Shown here: positions 3,104-63,079 of the stretch, piece after piece
Numbering within the stretch: position 1 is the first letter of the stretch
Layout of the letters: each line of letters opens with the position of its first letter
Source of the DNA: Spinellus fusiger
Taxonomy: Eukaryota; Mucoromycota; Mucoromycetes; Mucorales; Phycomycetaceae
Length of the DNA stretch: 64,000 bases
NCBI GenBank assembly: GCA_025094145.1
Contig: JALLLS010000036.1
Span: 186,001-250,000 of the forward strand
Direction of reading: 5' to 3'
Position numbers and translations under genes: made by a program
Notes under the pieces: model-generated
Told to the model about the DNA's origin: nothing
The model's input: the letters and a program-made list of their open reading frames with translations, nothing else
The model's database searches: none

Positions 3104-4466
3104 TGGTGTCCGGTGGAAAATATATAAAGGTTTTTATTTTCCGATAGTATTCATGTTTGGGGAAATACTTATTGTTTTTAATAAAAACATACATTAAACA
3201 CACATTAGAGACTTGAGAATTAGATGAAGTATAAAGAAGTTCAACAGGATAATAAATACAGGTTTATTGGGTGAAAACCCTTAGTATTTGGTGTTTCCAC
3301 CCTTGGCCTCTATCACAGTCCTACATCTCCAATGCATGCTATTGATGAGGTTGTTGGTAACCTCTTTGGGGATCTTGTCTCATTCTTGGACCAGGAGAGC
3401 CTTCAGATTCTGGAGGGTGCTTTCTGGGGTCATCCTCTTCCGAATCGTTCTGTCTAGTTCCTCCCAAAGATGCTCTATTGGGTTCAGGTCAGGGCTCTGA
3501 GAGGGCTCCCCCTCCATCCTGGCAATCCTTCTCTCATCCTTTCATTTCCTAGTCTCCTTACTAGTATGGCAACTGGCATTTTCCTCTTGAAGAAAATAGC
3601 CTAACACTGGATTCAGTGTCGAAAAGACAAGCTAGCTCAGGGCAATAGGCTGTTTCTAAAGTACCAGTGTATTTGGCACTATTGATGGATCTCTCCATCA
3701 CAGCAAGTCTACCAACAACTTCACCAAAAAAGGAACCTTACACCATCACTCCACCACCACCAAACTTCATCGTCGGCTTCACATTCTTTGGGAGAAGACT
3801 CTCCTTCTTCCTGCGCACTAATATGGTACGGCTGTTGTTTCCCATTAGCTGGAACTTGGACTCATCAGACCAGATGACTGTCTTCCAGTCTTCATCTGTC
3901 CAACAAAGGTAGGTCCTAGTCCAAGTAAGCCTCAAATTCTTGTGTTTAATGATGAGAGAGGGTTTCTTAACAACCCTGAAAGAAGAAGGGCAAATCCTCT
4001 ATCATTTCTCAAAAAGTGCTCATGCACACTTTGGTGGTCATCTGCTTGCAAAGTTGATCTATTGTCTGAAATGAATCCCTTTCCATCTCGTATACAAACT
4101 CTCTCTCTCTTTTCCTTCTACGTCAGAATGAACTTTCAACTAAAGCCCATTCCTGATTTGAAACAGTCAGTTTCCCTGTACCTCTTCATAATGAGGCTGA
4201 CAGCAGAATGACTGATGCCAAACATGGCTGCAATATCCATTTGTCTGGTGCCATGTTGAGTGGCCTCATGAACAATGAGTTGACGAGTGAAGTCGTCTAT
4301 ATTTTTCTTCTTGATTACAATAGGCTTGGTGGATTGTTCAGTGGTGTTGGACATAGTAGACATTATAGTGGAAAAAGAAATGAGGAATAAGTAAAAAAAA
4401 GAATTTAACTTGAGCAAAATAAAGGTCGGAAAATGAAAGTCTTTATATATTTTCCACCGGACACTG
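3104..4466 (-). mobile_element. Decayed Tc1-family transposon
   Basis: The element is 1,363 bp with 26-bp imperfect terminal inverted repeats (3104-3129 and 4441-4466). The ends read inward as CAGTGTCCGGTGG (right) and TGGTGTCCGGTGG (left). A TA lies directly outside each end (3102-3103 and 4467-4468), as expected for Tc1/mariner target duplication. It belongs to the same family as the element at 56,094-57,950, with which it shares its 3' untranslated region and coding region. The transposase inside is broken, so the copy is non-autonomous. Confidence 0.9.
3281..4363 (-). pseudogene. Tc1 transposase, broken
   Basis: Read on the minus strand from an ATG at 4363, the first ~75 codons give a helix-turn-helix region (FTRQLIVHEAT... 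SAVSLIMKRYRETD). The DDE part is visible in a second frame around 3738-3935 with the first aspartate in VIWSDESKF. The NPIEHLWEELD block carrying the catalytic Glu is near 3470, and the C-terminus AKGGNTKY ends at 3281. Frameshifts and at least one stop (in the codon after VQE, near 3395) interrupt it. Here the codon after EHL is TGG (Trp), whereas the sister copy near 57 kb has TGA. Confidence 0.85.
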
Positions 4467-4489
4467 TATTAGTACATTAGAACCCTCAT

Positions 4490-4671
4490 TGAGGTTTTAT
4501 ATTCTCTTTTCTTTCTGTTTCTAATTCATTTGCATTATTTTTTTTCACTTTTTTATTTGAAGTGTTTATATGTATATTCTCATGTATTTCACAAAAGTTC
4601 TCATAGGGTGGCTGATATGCCCAAAGCGCGAATAGCAAACCACACCCAAAAAATAAAAATACTTTGAACTG
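4490..4671 (+). repeat. Single terminal copy of the 52.5/59.0-kb repeat family
   Basis: This segment matches the inverted termini of the 52,544-59,054 block but is diverged. It shares the motifs CCTCAT-GAGGTTTTATA, CTCATAGGGTGGCT, GCGCGAATAGCAA and the terminal ACTTTGAACTG. It ends at exactly the same base as the other two copies and is followed by TA (4672-4673). Only one end is present, and it sits 23 bp from the right end of the Tc1 element. It is either a 5'-truncated LINE tail or a broken end of a DNA transposon. Confidence 0.75.
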
Positions 4672-41757: not shown

Positions 41758-42214
41758 ATTTATGTTTATGTTTATGTTTATATTTATGTTTATGTTTATG
41801 TTTATGTTTATGTTTATATTTATATTTATGTTTATGTTTATGTTTATATTTATGTTTATGTTTATGTTTATATTTATGTTTATGTTTATGTTTATATTTA
41901 TGTTTATGTTTATGTTTATATTTATGTTTATATTTATGTTTATATTTATGTTTATGTTTATGTTTATATTTATGTTTATATTTATGTTTATGTTTATGTT
42001 TATATTTATACTTATATTTATATTTATACTTATATTTATATTTATACTTATATTTATATTTATACTTATATTTATATTTATACTTATATTTATATTTATA
42101 CTTATATTTATATTTATATTTATATTTATATTTATACTTATATTTATATTTATACTTATATTTATATTTATACTTATATTTATATTTATATTTATATTTA
42201 TACTTATATTTATA
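41758..42214. repeat. Hexanucleotide satellite (TTTATG/TTTATA/CTTATA)n
   Basis: About 455 bp of continuous 6-bp units. The left half (to about 42003) mixes TTTATG and TTTATA. The right half is dominated by an 18-bp higher-order unit TTTATACTTATATTTATA repeated about ten times. Because the unit is a multiple of three without stops in most frames, long open frames appear on both strands; they are not genes. Confidence 0.95.
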
Positions 42215-43243
42215 TTGCATTTAGATATGTATTTATGTACTCCTTAACCCTTAGTTATGTTTTCGATCACCAAGATTGATTAATCGAACTTCATCATGGT
42301 AAAACTGCTTTTTGACAAGACTTTATGCAGGTGCACGTGTAATATTAAAGAACATCACTCACTTGAGGACATTGCATTCCACTTTCACACACATCCTCCA
42401 ACACATCTTTTAAGAAATAAGGAGTAGTAAGCCTACCCTAGAAGAGACAAAAGAGTTCAAAAATAAGAAACTCTGTCTTATCTCTTTGTACAGATATCTG
42501 CCTTTCTATTTGGATGCCACTGTTTGTAAATATTGGCGAGGGAACATTTATTTATTTAAAAAGTTCAAGTGCTATGGATGGTGGCTATTTCTACCCTCCG
42601 CTATGCTTCTTTACACCTTTAAACTTCAAGTGTCTATTTTTGGAATGGTAAAAGAGTAAAAAAGAGTGTAAGTTTTTTTTTCTTTCTGTTTTTAGCAGTA
42701 AAAATTCTTTGTTTATATTCTAACATTCTTTTCATTGTTTTAATGAGAAGACAGTTGGCCCTGCTTGTCTTTAAAGGATTTTATCCTAAAATTAGACAAC
42801 AGGAAATTTAGTTTGGGACAGTCCGAATATGAACATTAGACAATGTTAGAGATGCAATTATCACTTTTAAGACGACACTAAGTCTTTTGAAGACAGCGAG
42901 GCAACCTTCACTGTTTCATAAGTATGTATCAATAGGCTATACATTTTTGGCAGCCATGATATCTCGATTCCAGTCAATATTACATCTGTTAAAGATCACT
43001 CTCTGATGAACATAGTATACATTGCTCATTCTAACTTTTAGATTTCCGGTGTCTTATTGGAAACACTAACTACATATCTGTATAAAATACTAAGACGGTA
43101 TTGTCTTAATATAGGATGATATACTTATACATGTGTGTACATGTACATTTATATATTAGCATAAAGATTGGGTTCGAACAAGAGTAAGAAACCAGATTCG
43201 GCTACAAATAACGCCAGACTTTGTTCAAAATATAAAACTTTTA
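42215..43243. other. Intergenic, nothing recognised
   Basis: AT-rich DNA between the satellite and the transposon at 43,244. No exon, terminal repeat or RNA gene was seen. Confidence 0.5.
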
Positions 43244-48580: not shown

Positions 48581-48998
48581 ACTAAAGTTCTACACTATGA
48601 ATAGTTCCATTTCATCACAAACAAAATACCATAACGAATTTAACAAAAAAAAATAGAGCTGGTTTAAGTATTCTCATTCATGCTTCTATCAATCACTACT
48701 ATTAATATACGACTACCAAGTCCACATGAATTTGATACTATTGATTCATTGTCTCATAACTATTTTCCCAGGCAATTAGTATGTCATATGATGTGTTGGT
48801 CAGATCTACTATGAAAGAAAAGCTCACTGAATAGTGTCATTCAAATTGTTTTTTTAATATATATATATATATATATATAAGTATTACAATATTTTCTTAC
48901 TTAATAGGTCATTCTGGGTACAGAAAGACCTGTGCATTTTTCAGTCTACAAAGACACTAAAGATTCTTGTGTGTCCTTCAAGACTCTATGCCTATTTT
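48581..48998 (+). repeat. 415-bp dispersed repeat, copy A
   Basis: This 418-bp sequence recurs at 62,666-63,079 in the same orientation. By eye the two differ only by two A residues in one homopolymer (9 versus 7) and two bases in GACTCTATG versus GACTATG. It includes a long (AT) run. No terminal inverted repeats, tail or coding frame was seen. Confidence 0.95.
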
Positions 48999-52060: not shown

Positions 52061-52279
52061 ACTACATAGTGGCCAGAAGGGTGTGGTATCTACAGTCCTA
52101 TGTAATAAGTGACTAAACAAAAAATCAAAATAATTGAATTTTTTTTTGAAAAATAAAGGTATATCTATCAGTCTAAGATGTTCATAATATAATATTTATT
52201 GAATAAAATAATATTTGGGACAGTTGTTCTTTAAATGATTGTCTACATTTTTTATTATAAATATATTACTTAGTACTTT

Positions 52280-52541
52280 GTAGCAAAGCCTTTATTTTTC
52301 ATCACAGCGGAGCGCCTCTTTGGCATGCTATCCACTAATTTTCCAGAAATTCATTTGGAATCTTTTTGCATTCACTACACAAGCATCGTTGAGGCTGTTT
52401 TGTATTAGTTATACTTGTTCGATATGGCTCAATTCTTTCAAGATAAGCCCAGGCATGCTCAATTGGGTTAAGATATGGAGTTTGTGTAGGCCAAAAATCA
52501 AAACATCTGATCATACATCTTTCTTGTTTGTACCATCCTAC
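52280..52541 (-). pseudogene. Tc1 transposase C-terminal fragment, cut at the 52.54-kb junction
   Basis: The minus strand encodes FDFWPTQTPYLNPIEHAW, the catalytic-Glu block of Tc1 transposases. It continues to a tail DSMPKRRSAVMKNKGFATKY that ends near 52,275. A frameshift separates the two parts. The fragment stops abruptly at 52,541, where the 6.5-kb block begins. Confidence 0.8.
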
Positions 52542-52543
52542 TA

Positions 52544-52778
52544 CAGTTCAAAGTATTTTATTATTTTTGGGTGTTGGTTGCTATTCGCGCATTGGGCATG
52601 TTAGCCACCCTATGAGAACTTTTGAACAATTAAGATATACATATAAACACGTTCAAATACAAAAGTGGAAAAAATAAATGCAAGGAAAAAAGAAACAGAA
52701 AGATAAGAGTATATAAAACCTCGAAATGAGGGGAAAAATGAAGAGAAATATGAGAAATGAGAGAAAATGACAATGCAG
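52544..52778 (+). repeat. Left inverted terminus of the 6.5-kb block
   Basis: Bases 52544-52660 are identical by eye to the reverse complement of 59054-58938. From 52661 to about 52778 similarity falls but motifs such as TATAAAACCTCGAAATGAGG persist. A third, diverged copy is at 4490-4671. Confidence 0.9.
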
Positions 52779-52838
52779 ACATAGACATTAGTTTGAGCCT
52801 AATCCCACAAGCTTTTAATAGACCAAAGATTGGTCTGT

Positions 52839-53943
52839 TTATAAGTCTTGTTGGGTGTGTTGATTGTCTCCCTCGACTCCTTCCATGGCTGAGTCAGACC
52901 CAAATGCCTGGAGGGCTTCTTTTTCAAGGGTGGCGGGAGGGCTGGCGACTGTGGCCTTGGCCTTGAGGTCTGCCAGGAGCTTCTCAAAGGCAATGGTGGA
53001 TAGACAGGGCGTGGCAATGCTTGAGCCAAAGTGGCGAGCAATGCTGTACCCTAAATGGGTGGGGGCACGAAGACAAGTGTTGGACACTCTTTGCTCAAAG
53101 AGTTCTTGGGCCATTGCAGTCTTGGTGCTGTCAGACTCCTGCTGTAGATTAGGGTCTGCAATCACCGTTGCAGCTACTGGATCAAAGCTTGCCTGTGGCT
53201 TGATCTTTGATTTCTCGAGTTTCTCCTCGAGTTCTTGCTTGAAGCTACCGTGTACAAGCAGTGCAATTGTACCCCTTGCTGGGAAGTGGATGTCTATGAT
53301 CCGTGACTGTTGGATCTTCAGTGATCCCAACATCTTGCGGATCTGGCCGTACTTGAGGTAGTGGCGACAGGGCAAGTATACAGAGTCGTATACTGAGGGC
53401 CCAGTAGGCTCTTGTAAGGCCCGAACTGTTTGCGCTCTAAGCACTGCTCTGGCCTTTGCTGTCTTCTTTGGTGGAGGCGTTCTTTTTAGCCATGTTGGCA
53501 TAAATGACAGTAGCCTTTTCTATGGCATCTGTGGGTTTCACTGTGGGGATGGGTGTGGGGGTAGGGGTGGGAGGTGATTTGGGTGCATTATCTGCACTCT
53601 TGGCATTGATCTGAGCCTGGAGAGATGTAATAAGGTCATCCTTGACCTTGACTTGTGCTTCCAATTCCTGGATGCGGAGTCCAATTGTTGCCATTTGTCT
53701 CTGAATATCTGACAGAAATGCCATCATCTGCTGGGTGAAGGTATCAGACTTTTCTACCTCAGTCATTTGATACTCGTAAGTATTTGCACGAGTGCGTTTG
53801 GTAAGTAGTCTGGGTTTTCTGCTGTCTGAGTTAGGAATGGTGGTAGCAGTGGTGGCCTCAGACACAAAGGGTCTGACAGGTGCTGGTACAGGAGGTTGCT
53901 TGATGGTTGGTGATTGGCCAGGATCCGTAGTTGGTGTATCCAA
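52839..53943 (-). pseudogene. LINE (non-LTR retrotransposon) ORF1 with one frameshift
   Basis: Starting at the ATG at 53943, the first frame runs to 53437 and the second from about 53501 to the stop at 52839. Together they make about 350 residues. The first part is Pro/Thr-rich followed by a coiled coil (IRQMATIG-RIQELEAQVKVKDDLI type). The second has an RRM-like stretch (DSVYLPCRHYLKYGQIRKML ... IIDIHFPARGTIALLVH) of the kind I associate with ORF1 proteins of Mucoromycota LINEs. A one-base indel in the 65-bp overlap (Lys/Pro-rich) explains the break. No reverse transcriptase follows on this strand: the stop is about 60 bp from the terminal repeat. Confidence 0.65.
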
Positions 53944-54002
53944 TGTGTACTGTGTACTATGTGGGTGGATGGGGATTGTTGCTGATGGATTGTCCTATTA
54001 TA

Positions 54003-55410
54003 CAGTCACACAACATTAGATTTTTTTTTGTAAGTCATTGACCAATTTTATTTACACGCACACACAACATTAGAAAGTATACGACCCCCTAATTTATACA
54101 TTTTTAAACACGATTCATCTTCTTCTTTGTACCACAGAATCACATTCCATTAAGCAATCTCAAATGTCAAACGCAGAATTCTCAGCTAGAAACTCTAGAG
54201 TTTATAATAAGCTTGAAGAAAAGAGAGTAATAGGGTGTTTACTGGCTTTTAAAAAAGAAAATTACTCTATGGGTAGCATTTCAAAGGTCGTTGGCATTAG
54301 CAAGTCTACTGCCCAGAATATCATTAGTAGAATCAAGACCACTGATACACCTCTACCAAAGCCTAGTTCTTGTGCACCAAAAAAAAACTAAACGGGAGAG
54401 ATCTCGGACGACTTGAGGCCATTCTAAGAGGCAACCTATTTGCCTCCTATAACTACATAAATTTTGAACTTAAGGCACATGAGATAATCATCTGTAGAGC
54501 AATATTCATAAAATACATATACTAGGTTGGGTTTGGTTCCTACTTTAAAGCACACAAGCCAAGGTTGTCTGAAGAAAACATGAAGAAAAGACTTTGTTGG
54601 GCGAAGGAACGGGTCAATTGGACTCCTGAGGACTGGAGACGCGTCGTATGGTCTGATTCATCACCGTTTGAAGTAGAGGGTTACCAGGGAGGAGCCAGAG
54701 TTATTCGAAAGATCGGAGATAGTTATAAGGCTGCTCATATCATAGCTACAACCAAATGGGGGAAAGGCAGCATAATGATCTGGAGCTGTTTCTGGGCGGG
54801 TGGATTTGGGCCTTTGGTCTTTGTTGATGGCACTGGAAATCAGGACATATATGTCAACATTTTGGCAGGAAAATTTCTGCCATGGTTCATTGAATTGAAT
54901 GAGAAGGAGAATAAGTACTTTATATTCCAAGAAGATGGGGCTAGCTGCCATACAGGTGGCTATACAACATGATGGAAAAACACACATGCAATCAGGCGCT
55001 TTGATTACTGGCCTACCCAAAGTCCTGATCTCAACCCCATCGAACATCTCTGGAGCTGTCTTGATAAGCTTATCAATGAAAAGAAGGCCAGTATCAAAAA
55101 TATCGATGAGCTCAAGACAGCTTTAGAAGAAGCTTGGGGAAATATCTAAGTTGATCTTGCCGAACGTTTAGTTGGCTCAATGAAGGATCGCTGCCAGGCA
55201 GTTATTGATGCCAAAGGTGGCCCAAAAAAATATTAAATAAAAACTTTTATATTTATATATTAATATAGATAATATGTTAAACTAACTTTGTGTTGAATTT
55301 GAAGTCATTAGTATGTGTTTTGAGGTCGTAACATCTATATCCGTAAAGCATGTTTTTTTTTCAGGATTTCAAAAAATGAAAATCGTATACTTTCCAATGT
55401 TGTGTGACTT
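54003..55410 (+). mobile_element. Tc1-family element with a duplicated left end
   Basis: The element is 1,408 bp flanked by TA (54001-54002 and 55411-55412). The right end, read inward, is AAGTCACACAACATTGGAAAGTATACG. The left end begins CAGTCACACAACATTAGA but reaches AAAGTATACG only after about 55 bp, because CACACAACATTAGA occurs twice (54007-54020 and 54062-54075). The left end thus carries an internal duplication. It sits just upstream of the LINE ORF1 start. Confidence 0.88.
54164..55236 (+). pseudogene. Tc1 transposase, several breaks
   Basis: An N-terminal helix-turn-helix (YSMGSISKVVGISKSTAQNI) is followed by a frameshift in an A-run near 54381-54389 and a stop near 54523. The catalytic region is then open from 54565: first Asp in VVWSDSSPF, second Asp in QEDGASCH. 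A TGA at 54970-54972 falls where Trp is usual, then the Glu in SPDLNPIEHLW. Another stop lies near 55147. About 35 residues separate the second Asp from the Glu. Confidence 0.88.
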
Positions 55411-55412
55411 TA

Positions 55413-56093
55413 TAAAAACAAAGGCATAAATCGACCCAAACTGCGTACAGGAAGACCTGAAAAGGTTTCATCTACTTCAAAACTGACTATCGTTTTGTCT
55501 ATTTGCAGAAACCCTATGCAAATAATTGCATACCAGTTGAAAATATGAATGATAAAGGTGTGGGTATTTTCCGTAAGACATTTCTAAAATATATTCATGA
55601 ACTTGGGGAGTTTCATGCTCACCATCAAAAAAACTTGGCATGATATTTACTCACAATTAAAGATAATCGTAATAATGTAAATACAAGGTTGATTAGCCAG
55701 TGGAAAGGTGGGATAGCGTTGTTTGGTCTGATGTATCTTGTTTTACAGTTGTAGGCAATGATAAGGAGCCTAGAGTGATTAGAATGATAGATGAAAGGTA
55801 TGAGGAGCGTCATACGCAAAGAAAATACGAGTATTACAAGGATTCGGTCATGGTTTAGGGCTGCTTTTGGTGTAAAAGTGTAGGACCTCTTGTACTCTTA
55901 AGGGATCAGTTAATCAAGACAGGTATTTCAATATACTTGCCAGACACTTTATTACCTGGTTCTAAAAATTGCAAGAGGACCTCAATGGGACCATGCTCCT
56001 TAAAGAAGACAGGACTTCTTGCCACACAGGAGCATATACAGTGGCTCCTAACAAAACAATGGATTTTTTTCATGCTCTGGTCTAATTCTGTAA
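55413..56093 (+). pseudogene. Heavily decayed Tc1 transposase remnant
   Basis: Scattered blocks in different frames are recognisable. They include LRTGRPEKV near 55440, SVVWSDVSCFTVVG around the first Asp (55710-55755), and EDRTSCHTGAYT near the second Asp (56003-56040). No ends were found; the right side abuts the next Tc1 element at about 56,094. Confidence 0.7.
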
Positions 56094-56215
56094 TAGGAAA
56101 TACTTATTCTTTATCATAAAAACATACATTAAACACACAGTAGAGACTTGAAAATAGGATGAAGTATAAAGAAGGTCAATGGGATAATAAATACAAATTT
56201 ATTGGGTGGAAACCC

Positions 56216-57878
56216 TTAGTATTTGGTGCTTCCACCCTTGGCCTCAATGACAGCCCTACATCTCCGATGCATGCTGGCTGTCGTGTTCCGACTTCAATCC
56301 AAAGATTCTTTATGAATTGGTCAACATGAATAGTATGCTGTGACATTCGGAATACTCTATGAAAGCTTTAGTGCACACAAGTACCATAGTACATCTCTGT
56401 ATAATCTCACTGATCGGTCGTAACTACAAATCAACCTTCTAAGCTCAATTTACTATCGGACACTTAATGAGCTGCCTTCATCTATAAATCCTTAGTGGAT
56501 TAAATAAGACCTATCAAAGACAATTAAAAGTGAAGACATAATAGATGGCTCTATAATGTTGTGCTTATTCAATGAACCAACCATAAGGCTCCAACATGTA
56601 GTCTACCATTAGGTAGAACAGCTACACCAACCATAAATCTACACCTATGTAAACTACCATAGGATAAATCATCTACACCAACCATACGGTTGCATCTATC
56701 AATAAGCTATTCCATGAACTAATCATTAACTACCAAAAGGTAGAATACTACTGAAGGATAAGCATCCACAAAAAGTATAAATAATGAACCACTCTTCACT
56801 TAATAAAAATTATCTTTGTTCAGTCTCGTTATTTCTACTTGTCTGAATAATCACACTGGCAATGAGGGTGTCTGTGGTGTCCTTGGGATTTTTTTTCCCG
56901 TTCTTGCAATAGAAGCACCTCCAAATCCTGAAGGGAGCTTGCTGGGGTCATCCTCTTCCTAATGGCCCTGTCAAGCACCTCTCAAAGATGCTCTATTGGG
57001 TTCAGGTCGGGGCTTTGTGAGGGCCACCCTTCCATAGTGGCAACGTTCTCTTGTGCCTTCCACAACCTGAACCCTCTACTCTTGTGGCAGCTAGCATTGT
57101 CTTCCTGAAGAACATAATCAATCTCTGGATTCAGTGCCTTGAGTTGGGCCAGCTCAGGGCAGTAGTTCTCCTTTAAGATCTCAATGTATCTTCCACTGTC
57201 TATACTGCCCTTCACAGGCGCCAATCTCCCGACACCTTCACCAGAGAAAGATCCCCACACCATCACGCTGCCACCTCCAAACTTCATGGTGAGCTTGACG
57301 TTCTTCGGGAGCAGCCCCTCATTAACTTTTCGCACCACCCTGGTACGGTTGTTGGTGGTGACCAACTGGTATCTGGACTCATCAGACCAGATGACTGTCT
57401 TCCAGTCGTTTTCGGTCCAGTGGAGATGGGCCTTAACCCAAGCAAGCCTCAACTTCTTGTGCTTGATGCTGAGAGAAGGTTTCTTGACCACCCTGCAAAA
57501 AAACAGGCCAAGCTTCTTCATCATTTTTGAGAAGGTGTTCCTGGACACTTTGGTGGTCATCTGCTTGTGAAGCTGATTCATTGTCTGAAATGAATCCCTT
57601 CCCACTTCGCGACTGACCTCTCTCTCATCCCTCTCTTTCAGAATGGGCTTGCGCCCAGTGCTGTTCTTGGCCTTGAAACAGCCAGTTTCCTTATATCTCT
57701 TTACGATAAGGGAAACAGACTGCCTACTAACTCCAAACCTAGCAGAAATGGCAACCTGGCTGGTCCCATTTACGGTGGCCTCGTGAGCAATGAGGCATCG
57801 AGTGAAGTTATCGATATTCTTCTTTCTGTTTCCAAGAGATCTCATGGGTTGTTCGGTGGTGTTAGATGAGGTAGACAT
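56216..57878 (-). pseudogene. Tc1 transposase, nonsense mutation plus LTR insertion
   Basis: From the ATG at 57878 there are 298 open codons. They contain the helix-turn-helix (FTRCLIAHEATVNGTS... SRQSVSLIVKRYKETG), the first Asp (VIWSDESRY), second Asp (LQEDNASCH) and Glu (SPDLNPIEHL). Translation then stops at a TGA (56982-56984) where the 3104-4466 copy has TGG. The frame continues open beyond the stop (EVLDRAIRKRMTPASSLQDL) until the solo LTR, and the tail AKGGSTKY ends at 56216. The triad is intact, so this is a recently inactivated gene. Confidence 0.9.
56279..56855. mobile_element. Solo LTR with 5-bp target duplication
   Basis: A 577-bp insert starting TGTCGTG and ending ATCACA (TG...CA termini), flanked by an exact direct repeat CTGGC (56274-56278 and 56856-56860). 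Comparison with the uninterrupted Tc1 copy shows one such site before insertion. A TATAAATA box and an AATAAAAATT signal near the right end (about 56776-56813) suggest plus-strand transcription. The motif CTACACCAACCATA recurs. There is no internal retrotransposon sequence, so it is a recombination remnant. The superfamily cannot be told. Confidence 0.92.
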
Positions 57879-57950
57879 TAGAGTGGAAAAGCAATAAATG
57901 AAGAATGTTTAATTAAAAAAATTAAGGGTAAAATTATGGTCTGAATTTGA

Positions 57951-58650
57951 AAATACCATTGTTTTGTTAGGAGCCATTGTAGTAGGATGGTGTAGGGGAG
58001 TACTCTGGCAAAATGCTCAAAGAATAGGACGGGCTCACAACCCTCCTAAATATCCATTAAAAGTAGCTTATCTTGAACGTCTTCAAAGTGAAATTACTAG
58101 TCTAGTACGTGGCAAGAATCCGCTGGTGACGGTAGCCCGTGGACTATGTAGACCTGTTTGGGATCCAATTCTTCTACTACCGTGCACGCGCAAAGAAAGA
58201 CATCGTCTACTAAAATGGAGGATTGCTTGGTTACCACCAACACCTTCAGTTCCTTGCCAATGTGGCCACCCGTCTACCAATCGGGACCACTTTCTCACTT
58301 GCACATTCGTTGACCATGAACGCTCCACGTTCTTGTTCTTCTTAGTTCCTGCACCACAAGACGTTCATCCAATTGACTATTGTCTAAATCTTCTGCAGCG
58401 CACGGTTAAGTCTTTTGTTAAATGGCGAGATCTTTGGCCCAGTTTGTTAATACTGCTGCAAGCCATTGATCGAGCCACGTCTACTCGAGACTTTAAGGTA
58501 GAGCCATCAGCTGGTAGCTTGCTCATTGAGGCTGCTGATGGGTGTGTTGAGCGGGAACGCCAACGCCGCCATAGAGTGCAAAGACTCCTGCAGCAACAGA
58601 CGCTGTATCCTCACTTCTTCTCCGATCTCTCCTCTACCACCCATTCTTAA
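57951..58650 (+). pseudogene. LINE reverse-transcriptase C-terminal fragment
   Basis: About 230 codons open to a stop at 58650 with no credible start; the left side is cut by the Tc1 element. The ending includes a cysteine/histidine motif CQCGHPSTNRDHFLTC, typical of the region after the reverse-transcriptase domain in fungal LINEs, followed by a helical, basic tail. None of the catalytic reverse-transcriptase motifs is present. It points outward to the right terminus, opposite to the ORF1 remnant. Confidence 0.65.
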
Positions 58651-58819
58651 CCCGTTTAGCAAAGCCAGAAGCTGCTAGTGTAGTTGCTGTATTTGTGCCC
58701 TCAGTATTGTCCGAGTTGCTCTAAGTATCCCTCGTTGGATTTCGAATCGCCACAGGATGACGGTTATCTTTTTGGTGTCCTGGTTTCCTTGCTGACTTTA
58801 TGGCCTTTTGGATGTCTAT

Positions 58820-59054
58820 TCATAATTCTCATTTTACCATCATTTCCACTCATTTTCATTATTTTCCCCTCATTTCGAGGTTTTATATTCTCTTTTCTTT
58901 CCGTCTCTTCTCTCTTTGCATTATTTTTTTCACTTACGTATTTGAACGTGTTTATATGTATATCTTAATTGTTCAAAAGTTCTCATAGGGTGGCTAACAT
59001 GCCCAATGCGCGAATAGCAACCAACACCCAAAAATAATAAAATACTTTGAACTG
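58820..59054 (-). repeat. Right inverted terminus of the 6.5-kb block
   Basis: Reverse complement of the left terminus, identical by eye over the outer 117 bp (58938-59054) and diverging further in. It ends ACTTTGAACTG followed by TA. Confidence 0.9.
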
Positions 59055-59056
59055 TA

Positions 59057-59290
59057 CAATAGGACACTCTTGCCCACTGTGCTCTTTGGGATGTCAAAAT
59101 CGTCAGAAATCTCTTGATAAGTAGTATGTCTTTTCTATTGTCCTATGATTTGACTTATAATAAACATAGCATGTTCTCTTCTTATAATGGGACTATCTTC
59201 ATGTTCTTGGCTAAGAGTTGGCTGATTCTTATTGCTTTAAGTCATCTTTTGAATAAGTTGTAAGAGAAAAAAAACCTCTATTTTATTTTT
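59057..59290 (-). pseudogene. Tc1 transposase N-terminal (helix-turn-helix) fragment
   Basis: On the minus strand: IIRREHAMFIISQIIGQ, a stop, then TTYQEISDDFDIPKSTVGKS, which reads like the DNA-binding region of Tc1 transposases. It is cut at 59,056 by the 6.5-kb block. Its orientation and position fit the missing front half of the fragment at 52,280-52,541, but about 180 residues between the two are absent. Confidence 0.6.
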
Positions 59291-62200
59291 GAAGAATAAA
59301 AAATAAAAATTAGTTCGCTGTCTAGTCATTTATTAGATAAGACTGTATATTCAGGGGTTAACTTATCGAAATGCTATGAACTATCGTCATCACTTAATAT
59401 TCGATAGAGTCCTCTTCTTAGTTTGGTAATAAATTAGTCCTAATCCTCAAGAGAGTGATCCTTCCCATTATGGTGAAAAGTCTTCACGACACTATGATAA
59501 ATATTTTTAAAATATTGTTATTCTGCAAATACTGTGAGCTTAAAGATAACATTATGTTAAGAGAAGAATATCAGTGACTGAGTTTTAATTATGTGGTGAT
59601 TCTGGTTCTATTTCCTGTCTTTACAGCCAATTCTATACTTTTTAATTGCAAAGTCAATCGTCATTGCTAGAATAGGCAGGTAGAGTTTGAAATAGTATAT
59701 TTAGACATCGAAAAAGTATTTTTAAACACATTAGCCAATCATATGAATATTGCGATTTTACTCTCAGGATATTTTCTTATATATCCCAAAGATCTTTGGG
59801 TGTGTAAGTTAACTTAGAATGTGTCACAGCCAAAAAGAAAAGAATAAAGATATTGGAATTGTCAATATTCTACTCTATTGTTTGCTTCTTATGTACCAAT
59901 TACATATTTATAGTGTTAGTTAATGATGTATACATATGCTAGAACAATGTAAGATATGAATTTATAATTGTAAATCTCAGAAATATAAAACATACTAGAC
60001 AGTGTAATGCCTTTTGCATAATAAAATACAATAAGACACACTTTATCACTCTTTAGATAGTTTTTGTTTTATTTTATTTTATTTTATTTTATTAGTATTG
60101 AAGACTTCTGTCAGTCAACCGAGGCTCCACTGATAATTAAGAAAAAAGTAGATAAACCAGAAGGCTTGCACTTTCTATTAGTTTTAGCTTATCTTGCTGA
60201 ATGGGTAACATTTTTTTAGTTCAGAGAGATAGATAGAAGCCATATAGTTTATTTTTAATAATAACATTGAATACTATCAGATACTATTTATTATACACAG
60301 ATGTGATAGTGTCTTCAATGACTTCTTAGGTCTAAAGATATTTGGTTAGTTAATTTACAATTGATTCTGCTTTTTTATTCAACTTTACTATTCTTTTATA
60401 TTTTCATTCTACTCTATTTGTTACAACAAATAGAAGAACTTAACAGAATTCATCACCAAATATAATAACCTTACTACCAAAAGACATACATTCTAATACA
60501 GACTGTTTTATTTTCATACTATCTCTAATATCCATCAACTGTATCAAATGCACTACGGCTCATCATAGATTCTTTATCCCATACTAATCATTTTGTGGCT
60601 GTGTGTGGCTGTGTGTGTGTGTGTGTTTACGATTTACTAGTTGCTAACTCTTTGTTTTTCTTAATATAAAGTATGTGTAAACATAACAGATATGTATTTT
60701 TATTTGTGGTTATGAAAGAATAAAAAACAGGTGTCAATAACCTTTAATTCTTTTCAAATAAAAGACACACCAAGTATGGACACAAACAAAGATTTATTAG
60801 ATATATATCAGAGAAATATGAGTACATAAAAGTATTGTGTCTGACACAGAAGCTATCAACATTCTTCCAAAGGGAATTATGCTAAGTATCATTCAATATT
60901 CATATATTTCATAGAGAATCACTGTGAAGAAATATAAATATATAAAATTCAGTGTATAAAAACTCTTAGACTAAGATATATATTTCTACATTTCTACTTA
61001 ATCTATTGTGATCAATTCAGTAGCATGCTATTAAAACTAATGTTTTATTTGTAAACACCATGGCATTATTTTGTATTATTTGAAATATTCCAACCTTCAA
61101 TTATAAGCATATGCTTATAGTATTGTTGTTAGTTTGAGTTATAGAGAGCTCTTGTTTATGTGTCGTGCTACTGATCGGTTCTATAGTGTCTAATTAATGA
61201 GCCGCCCTGGAACTCTCTCTCTTTTCTTTTTTAATCTTTTCTAGCTGTTTAAACTGATATTTTCTGTATCTTCTGCTTTCATCGTTTTTACAACACTTTC
61301 TATTGTCTTTGTCTTTTTTTTTAGGAAGCCTTTCATCAATATATGTATTATGTTACTGATACTGATACTCTAGAACTGTTCATACTCAAGTATAAGATTA
61401 TTATTCAAATAAATAGTGAATATATAGCGGTTGTTATTAGCAGTAGTATATATCTGCATGTCCATGTCCATGTAAAGATATGCATATCTGCTTATCTATG
61501 TGTATGTGTATGTTATAATCTATGATCGTATGTATTTGTACATAGTTGTATCGGTGTCTGTATTTGTAGGACAAATAAAAAACTGATATAAGTGCAGTTA
61601 TAACTAAAAGAAATTTTATGAAAAGAGCTGATGGTGAGATGAAACATATGTGATGGTCACCAAAAGAAATGACTGAAATTATATTTAGAAAGTAGCGAGT
61701 TTTTTTTTATTATAAAAAAATAAAATAAAATAAGATTGAGACAATAGACACATCTTCAGCATAGATTACTATCCCCAACTATATTTAACCCTAGATCAAT
61801 CTCTGGCCTCTTGTAAAATAATTCAAATAAGAAGAACAGCAGTGAAAGTTCATTTTACATTATTAAAGATCTATTGCTTTGATTCTATCTAAATTTAAGA
61901 ACACAAGCGGATTTGTGGCTACACTTGTATCACTCTTGTGAATACAACAGCTCTTGAGCCAAGGATGATTTTCTAGTTGTAGTCCAAGATACCCAATATA
62001 GAAATTAAAAAAGATAAATTAAAAAAAAAATTAATACTGTTGCTTAGTAGGATTTCAATTGATTATTGACTATTAAAGTTAATCGAGACATATTTGATCC
62101 AAAGTGTTTTATTGACAAAAAGACCGTATGATCTAATTGAACTACTACTGGTACAATTAAACAAACCTTATAGTTAAAGTATACCTCTTTCATGACAATA

Positions 62201-62665: not shown

Positions 62666-63079
62666 ACTAAAGTTCTACACTATGAATAGTTCCATTTCAT
62701 CACAAACAAAATACCATAACGAATTTAACAAAAAAATAGAGCTGGTTTAAGTATTCTCATTCATGCTTCTATCAATCACTACTATTAATATACGACTACC
62801 AAGTCCACATGAATTTGATACTATTGATTCATTGTCTCATAACTATTTTCCCAGGCAATTAGTATGTCATATGATGTGTTGGTCAGATCTACTATGAAAG
62901 AAAAGCTCACTGAATAGTGTCATTCAAATTGTTTTTTTAATATATATATATATATATATATAAGTATTACAATATTTTCTTACTTAATAGGTCATTCTGG
63001 GTACAGAAAGACCTGTGCATTTTTCAGTCTACAAAGACACTAAAGATTCTTGTGTGTCCTTCAAGACTATGCCTATTTT
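62666..63079 (+). repeat. 415-bp dispersed repeat, copy B
   Basis: Same orientation as copy A at 48,581-48,998 and almost identical over 414 bp, including the (AT) run. Flanking sequences of the two copies are unrelated on both sides, so the repeat boundaries are sharp. Confidence 0.95.

Follow-up and report, generated by a model that had tools for sequence, protein, structure and literature searches.

A 6.5-kb block with inverted ends (positions 52544-59054) was analysed in a 64,000-nucleotide stretch of the Spinellus fusiger genome (G000:C128:186001-250000, hereafter the window), and searches were run over the whole 38-Mb genome. The block very probably consists of two copies of one target-specific long interspersed nuclear element (LINE) family, which were inserted at two outward-facing Tc1/mariner termini, the interior between them having been flipped later. 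That the block terminus is the 3' end of a LINE family was nearly certain. The first-pass annotation had weighed a composite transposon with terminal inverted repeats and captured retroelement parts against two inverted LINE copies whose shared 3' end finishes in CTGTA. The second explanation was borne out. The first was not, since the terminus was found to end LINE copies that mostly had no inverted partner. The Tc1/mariner middle of the block, a third copy of the terminus ending at 4671, the swapped flanks and an enclosing Tc1-like element were additional to that annotation.

The arms were compared base by base. Starting at 52544 and 59054 and moving into the block, they were identical over 117 bases, with lower identity beyond. 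Both block ends opened with CAGT and TA preceded each, which agreed with the earlier description of perfect inverted ends. The arms proper spanned 52542-52677 (+) and 58921-59056 (-), 136 nt with 98% complementarity, and a second inverted stretch (52668-52737 / 58862-58931) reached 87%. In self-BLAST the inverted repeat measured 250 bp at 89.6% with E 8e-85, and chance was therefore dismissed. The interior content also stood as annotated: an open reading frame 1 (ORF1) at 52839-53943 is read leftwards, and a reverse-transcriptase tail at 57964-58650 (+) is read rightwards.

The left part of the block was an ORF1-only (HAL1-like) LINE copy on the minus strand (52544-53990), with its 3' end at 52544. 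It was 97% identical to the 1,524-bp copy in L010, and its first 75 bp were missing. Its ORF1 was broken into overlapping frames (52839-53501 and 53437-53943), for which Pfam gave only a weak coiled coil under the cut-off. The target duplication of this copy (TATAATAGGACA, 53991-54002, -) adjoined the Tc1 terminus GTGTGACTG. The right part was a 5'-truncated copy of the autonomous type (57992-59054, +), comprising the C-terminal end of ORF2 and the 3' untranslated region (3'UTR). From 58000 onwards it shared 96.5% identity with the full-length copy L072, and its target duplication (TAGTAGGATGGT) lay at 57980-57991 (+). Tc1/mariner elements made up the centre. Element 1 (54003-55410) had a broken transposase and terminal repeats matching at 18/24 bases, and its left end was the target of the left LINE. 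A transposase remnant of a separate Tc1-like element was found by tblastn at about 55679-56040 (+). Element 2 (56039-57979, -) had terminal repeats matching at 23/24 bases and a transposase ORF at 56982-57878 (PF01498, PF13358), and its right end (GAGCCATTG followed by TA) was the target of the right LINE. Within element 2, about 640 bp (56276-56917) stood where a related Tc1 element (3104-4466) had only about 60 bp, and this stretch held a 51-bp unit repeated twice.

The LINE family was then characterised across the genome. The genome search that the first-pass annotation had proposed as a check was run with the left and with the right terminus. From 824 and 834 first-look candidates, 40 copies were scored in each case, so that at least 40 carry the terminus, and most of these lacked an inverted partner. 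In those copies whose upstream sequence was compared, the terminus closed a LINE of ORF2 or ORF1 type that had a target duplication of LINE-like form. No terminal repeats were present in single copies, as seen in the one that ends at 4671 in the window and in those with resolved junctions. With the ORF2 tail as query, 150 matches were scored out of 806 candidates, in open frames of very different length; six of the 150 lay in an uninterrupted 1,208-codon frame and the others were shorter or broken. Variable 5' truncation, a constant 3' end and target duplications were thus all observed, as in an APE-type LINE. The full-length autonomous copy L072 (C112) measured 5,205 bp and encoded ORF1 followed by an ORF2 of 1,197 amino acids, whose ATG overlapped the ORF1 stop. 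This ORF2 matched an APE endonuclease (PF03372, 3.7e-06) and a reverse transcriptase (RVT_1, PF00078, 1.8e-20), and its best solved match was the LINE-1 ORF2 protein. The closest named relatives of the LINE proteins were from Mucoromycota. For ORF2 they included sequences of Circinella, Rhizopus, Phycomyces, Cokeromyces, Dichotomocladium and Umbelopsis, and two arthropods supplied more distant ones. The family is young.

Two classes of ORF1 were found. The first was about 75% identical to the ORF1 of the window and lay upstream of a same-strand ORF2 (for example at C112, C127 and C1). The second was mostly 82-94% identical, and no ORF2 was present where both ends were known. It corresponded to a 1.5-kb (1,524-bp) element that lacked ORF2 and kept the ends and ORF1 of the autonomous LINE, with identities to the autonomous copy of 79% over the 5' 90 bp, 74% over the ORF1 region and 82% over the 3' 251 bp. 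Judged by its sequence, this element is organised like mammalian HAL1. As it shares its ends and its target with the full element, the ORF2 of the latter presumably mobilises it in trans. RNAalifold proposed a long stem round the 3' end of the 3'UTR, in which no pair with two-sided change and no covariation was found.

Target sites were determined at the LINE junctions. The fetched loci gave 81 rows of distinct 3' junctions, some of which were chance matches of the pattern. The bases after the terminal GAACTG were searched upstream for the same string with no assumption about the site, and an exact match of at least 11 bases was required. Exact duplications of at least 11 bp were obtained for 35 junctions; the others went uncounted, since either their 5' end was not covered by the fetched sequence or an exact duplication was not found. 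TG occupied positions -1/-2 and TA followed in all 35, with C at -3 in 33 and A at -4 in 34. Nine of these insertions followed the 3' end of another copy (GAACTG^TA, the caret marking the junction). Further 5' junctions came from 39 of the 40 listed full-length copies, the fortieth being L072, which also followed CACTG^TA. (C/T)TGTA stood 8-18 nt upstream in 35 of the 39, and the motif stood 3-26 nt upstream of the element in 38, as ACTGTA in 35. ACTGTA is expected by chance in such a span in about 1% of cases, from the window density of 41 sites in 128 kb of strand. Altogether, 73 of the 74 insertions elsewhere with an examined 5' junction followed (A/G)(C/T)TG^TA: nine were self-insertions, 56 lay at recognisable Tc1/mariner termini (typically CACTG^TA) and eight were unclassified. 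Most insertions thus lay at one defined sequence, as in a target-specific LINE.

We were highly confident that the family targets Tc1/mariner ends. A library of Tc1 ends was seeded with elements in which both terminal repeats were found, and 56/64 non-self sites could be aligned to it as far as the same terminus. The same test flagged two of the 41 ACTGTA sites of the window. Every fourth full-length copy was also sampled (n=10), and a Tc1-type transposase was present within 1.5 kb upstream in nine. In eight, a whole Tc1 element of 1,347-1,379 bp, with a partner repeat matching at 18-24 of 24 bases and TA, ended exactly at the LINE junction; of the other two, L082 had neither and L074 had a transposase, its partner repeat not being found. 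Several Tc1 families had been hit, with the ends TAGGAGCCACTG, GATGTGACACTG, TGCCGGACACTG, CACGAGTCACTG and GCTAGCCCACTG, which had little in common beyond CACTG. Eight of the nine transposase-bearing 1.5-kb stretches held no ATG-initiated ORF above 237 amino acids, and the LINE 5' ends matched one another at 98-100%; the LINE therefore probably came after the Tc1 element. BLAST found three LINE copies in the window, and all three sat on Tc1 ends. The third was a single tail (4479-4671, +) next to Tc1/mariner element 4 (3104-4466; terminal repeats 22/24 bases, transposase broken), in the order CCGGACACTG, TATTAGTACATT, tail, GAACTG, TATTAATACATT, with a duplication matching at 11/12 bases. The Tc1/mariner link that the first-pass annotation had read from the block ends was thus real. 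Its reason was a different one, namely that the LINE inserts at Tc1/mariner ends and that its own 3' terminus matches the target.

It was considered whether two LINEs had simply been inserted at ACTGTA, with Tc1 ends hit only as carriers of an ordinary hexamer. Nearly all sites shared ACTG^TA, and the 3' end of the LINE itself was likewise a target. The 41 ACTGTA sites of the window comprised three LINE 3' ends, five paired Tc1-type ends, two of them occupied, and 33 others; the third occupied Tc1 end of the window reads ATTGTA. None of the 33 ordinary sites was occupied by a LINE (0/33, small numbers), against 56/64 non-self insertions at Tc1 ends elsewhere in the genome. This explanation was therefore unlikely, and more than the hexamer must contribute, be it the shape of the DNA, the neighbouring sequence, the chromatin or some protein bound to Tc1.

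The target motif was also present in the LINE's own end, GAACTG^TA. In the nine self-insertions, the duplication was repeated between the units. At C112, C164 and C1, the same 11-13-bp duplication occurred three times, in the order Tc1, duplication, autonomous LINE, duplication, ORF1-only LINE, duplication (L072 with L011, L074 with L005 and L100 with L028). A full target duplication between the units meant that the ORF2-to-ORF1 tandems were separate insertions, and template jumping from ORF2 to ORF1 RNA was rejected as their origin. Transposase nicks as primers for the LINE were disfavoured, since LINE 3' ends can be hit without a Tc1 element.

The flanks of the block indicated that its interior had been turned. 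In the window, the 5' duplication of each LINE matched the outer flank of the other. The left outer flank (52532-52543, -) carried TAGTAGGATGGT, the duplication of the right copy, as the exact reverse complement of 57980-57991. The right outer flank (TACAATAGGACA, 59055-59066, +) matched the duplication of the left copy (TATAATAGGACA, reversed, at 53991-54002) at 11/12 bases. Such swapped duplications mean that the interior was turned relative to its surroundings. An exact reciprocal swap was also found at C12:38338-45414 and at C121 (TATAATGAATTC / TATGATAGAGCT), whereas C46 was unswapped, with one duplication matching at 12/12 and the other at 10/11. C109:752-5336 (L042, L048) and C19:18716-23301 (L043, L049) had both outer flanks in common and interiors in opposite orientation. 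At C109 the swap was one-sided: the duplication of the left copy equalled the right outer flank, and the 5' end of its partner lay outside the fetched sequence. At C19 the right copy had its own duplication. The difference between these two loci may be an inversion polymorphism, a haplotype difference or an assembly alternative.

The arms were typed against 29 ORF1-type and 39 ORF2-type ends, which differed at many diagnostic columns; 14 further ends were unclassified. The left arm was an ORF1-type 3'UTR. The right arm was ORF2-type in its inner part and ORF1-type over the outer 117 bp or so. Among 1,131 pairs of ORF1-type and ORF2-type ends, the window arms were the sole pair with at most two column differences over the outer 117 bp (median 16). 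Both window arms alone had C at a column where 30 other ends had A and 48 had a gap. Taken together, this was good evidence that homologous exchange took place between the window arms. Exchange between an ORF1-type and an ORF2-type 3'UTR would account for the identity stopping at about 117 bp. The inward drop in identity that the first-pass annotation had noted was therefore confirmed, while its reading as a sign of terminal repeats was not. A second chimeric LINE end was seen in L032 (C12:38338), in which an ORF2-type 3'UTR had an ORF1-like stretch near its end.

These results suggested that the inversion arose by recombination, and we considered this likely as against concerted insertion or assembly error. 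In a concerted double insertion, two LINE RNAs would be copied at both Tc1 ends, staggered cuts would free the Tc1 element, and its rejoining in either direction would create the swap at birth. Four of the six inverted arrangements examined were swapped (the window, C12, C121 and C109, but not C46 and C19), near the expected one-half, and the interior between the LINE 5' ends at C12 was a single Tc1 element. The right arm of the window, however, was ORF1-type in its outer part only, as homologous exchange predicts, and two different Tc1 elements lay between the window LINEs. The two orientations within the same outer flanks at C109 and C19 also fit a flip after insertion. Concerted insertion was accordingly judged quite improbable. 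Twin priming was rejected as the origin of the inverted pair in the window, because the two LINEs there have separate 3'UTRs and separate Tc1 targets.

The polarity of insertion was also considered. If Tc1/mariner elements had been inserted into the TA that opens the 5' target duplication of a LINE, the end structure at a single locus would be identical to that of a LINE inserted into Tc1. Several kinds of Tc1 would then have picked one TA among many in 56/64 cases. The adjoining Tc1 elements were mostly decayed and the LINEs near-identical, and the self-insertions displayed ACTG^TA as a LINE target without any Tc1. The opposite polarity was therefore very improbable. A composite Tc1/mariner-like DNA transposon with 117-235-bp terminal inverted repeats and captured LINE pieces would explain the CAGT start, the TA border and the perfect inverted ends, but it was hardly credible, because the terminus ended LINE copies with variable 5' truncation across the genome, the outer flanks were two different 12-bp LINE duplications beginning with TA instead of a single TA, the arms belonged to two LINE types, the other inverted arrangements differed in length (about 3.9 to 7.6 kb), and no repeated interior emerged from the best 40 copies per search, C12, C46, C109/C19 and C121 having other lengths and other Tc1 ends.

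Several observations weighed against two LINEs targeted to Tc1 ends and a later flip. Regarding the target, the Tc1-end test missed the real window ends at 54003, 52093 and 59345, which were revealed by terminal-repeat pairing, and the control rate of 2/41 is therefore a lower bound. Eight of the 64 non-self sites were unclassified. When four unclassified sites were followed 1.5 kb further upstream, a transposase was found at L127 and L129 and none at L126 and L128. No transposase was found at L057 and L058. One of the 39 full-length copies, L075, was without the motif, and in these 39 the motif was sought and not found blind. L082 reads GAGCTG^TA with no Tc1 nearby. The nick was placed only to within 2 nt, because TG is common to the LINE end and the target; L057, L058 and L027 differ from the LINE end upstream of TG. 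Regarding the flip, ORF1-type ends were often alike (16/406 pairs identical over the outer 117 bp; median of three differences), and the exchange claim therefore rests on the type switch and the one shared rare base. The C12 arms were without a clean reciprocal exchange, and two of the duplications in the window matched at 11/12 and not 12/12. Inversions between long repeats can be assembly errors, and C109/C19, with a near-identical repeat of about 960 bp, was the weakest case in this respect. Separately, at the non-Tc1 site of L082/L065 (C187), the element's own 3' end also reads GAGCTG, as if the base before CTG came from the target.

The insertion at Tc1 ends and the later inversion can be joined in one mechanism. 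The LINE endonuclease would nick the strand opposite (C)ACTG^TA, the junction between a Tc1/mariner terminal repeat and its TA duplication, and site recognition would be performed by the APE domain of ORF2. The LINE RNA would then be copied at the nick by target-primed reverse transcription, leaving a duplication of 11-15 bp that opens with TA and extends into host DNA. As the LINE 3' end, GAACTG^TA, offers the same motif, the element would become its own target and tandem arrays would form. The ORF1-only partner, whose 5' and 3' ends are those of the full element, would use the same sites. Tc1 elements have two outward-facing ends, and LINEs inserted on both would create an inverted pair of LINE 3' ends round Tc1 sequence; the product would therefore resemble a transposon with long terminal inverted repeats. 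Finally, the interior would be inverted by homologous exchange between the 3'UTRs of the pair, which would leave ORF1-type 3' sequence in both arms.

The entire block was enclosed by an outer Tc1-like element (52093-59345) with the inverted ends CAGTCCTATGTAATAAGTGACTAA / CAGTCTTATCTAATAAATGACTAG, matching at 20/24 bases, and TA on both sides. Its inner reading frames were full of stops, and no transposase match was obtained at E 1e-3 with three queries. Its family was therefore assigned from its ends, which suggest a Tc1-like element. It is older than the block. Elsewhere in the window, a 418-bp direct repeat with 99% identity occurred 14 kb apart (48581-48998 and 62666-63079), and a tandem repeat array at 41758-42238 comprised many units of high identity.

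The known targets of site-specific LINEs are RNA genes, telomeres and microsatellites and, in occasional cases, a single transposon. Tx1L of Xenopus inserts in the DNA transposon Tx1D, although no paper with both names was found. The present family resembles Tx1L as a target-specific APE-type LINE with a target within a DNA transposon. Tx1L, however, uses one site in one transposon family, whereas the present family uses the outer terminus with TA in many Tc1/mariner families and its own 3' end. Recombination between inverted copies of transposable elements flips the DNA between them; in the present case, the flip can be recognised from the target duplications, which serve as tags. Like the target-specific LINEs of the Tx1 and R1 clades, the present family has an APE endonuclease (PMC4640811), ORF1 and ORF2, and a precise 3' junction, but it differs in target class, theirs being, for example, RNA genes and microsatellites. 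HAL1 (half-L1) of mammals is likewise an ORF1-only derivative of an ORF1+ORF2 LINE (PMC5753468). The present element differs in being fungal and in having a site-specific 3' end without poly(A), and its identity of 74% to the autonomous ORF1 at the DNA level meant that it had long diverged. Zepp of green algae similarly amasses in nested clusters, but these occur one per chromosome and are probably centromeric (PMC3446292), whereas short arrays on Tc1 ends were found here.

'Transposons' are named among the known LINE targets in PMC4640811. LINEs with a transposon target were thus already known. A LINE that uses Tc1/mariner ends in general was not found in titles and abstract starts of the open-licence PMC literature, which does not establish its absence from print. 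We considered it fairly likely that the LINE endonuclease targets the outer Tc1/mariner termini as a class, across many families, and that the RNA 3' end came to match them. The LINE would then parasitise DNA transposons and itself, and paired insertions would make Tc1 elements into cassettes that can be inverted and have LINE 3' ends as their borders. If a LINE is directed to the ends of a superfamily of DNA transposons, it has many probably harmless sites, renewed as Tc1 elements move. The match between 3' end and target points to a simple way in which a LINE may start tandem arrays. In this family, nature also provides a test of the reading of a short target by an APE endonuclease and of what is needed beyond ACTG^TA, and the duplication-swap test can tell recombination from insertion in other apparent composite transposons.

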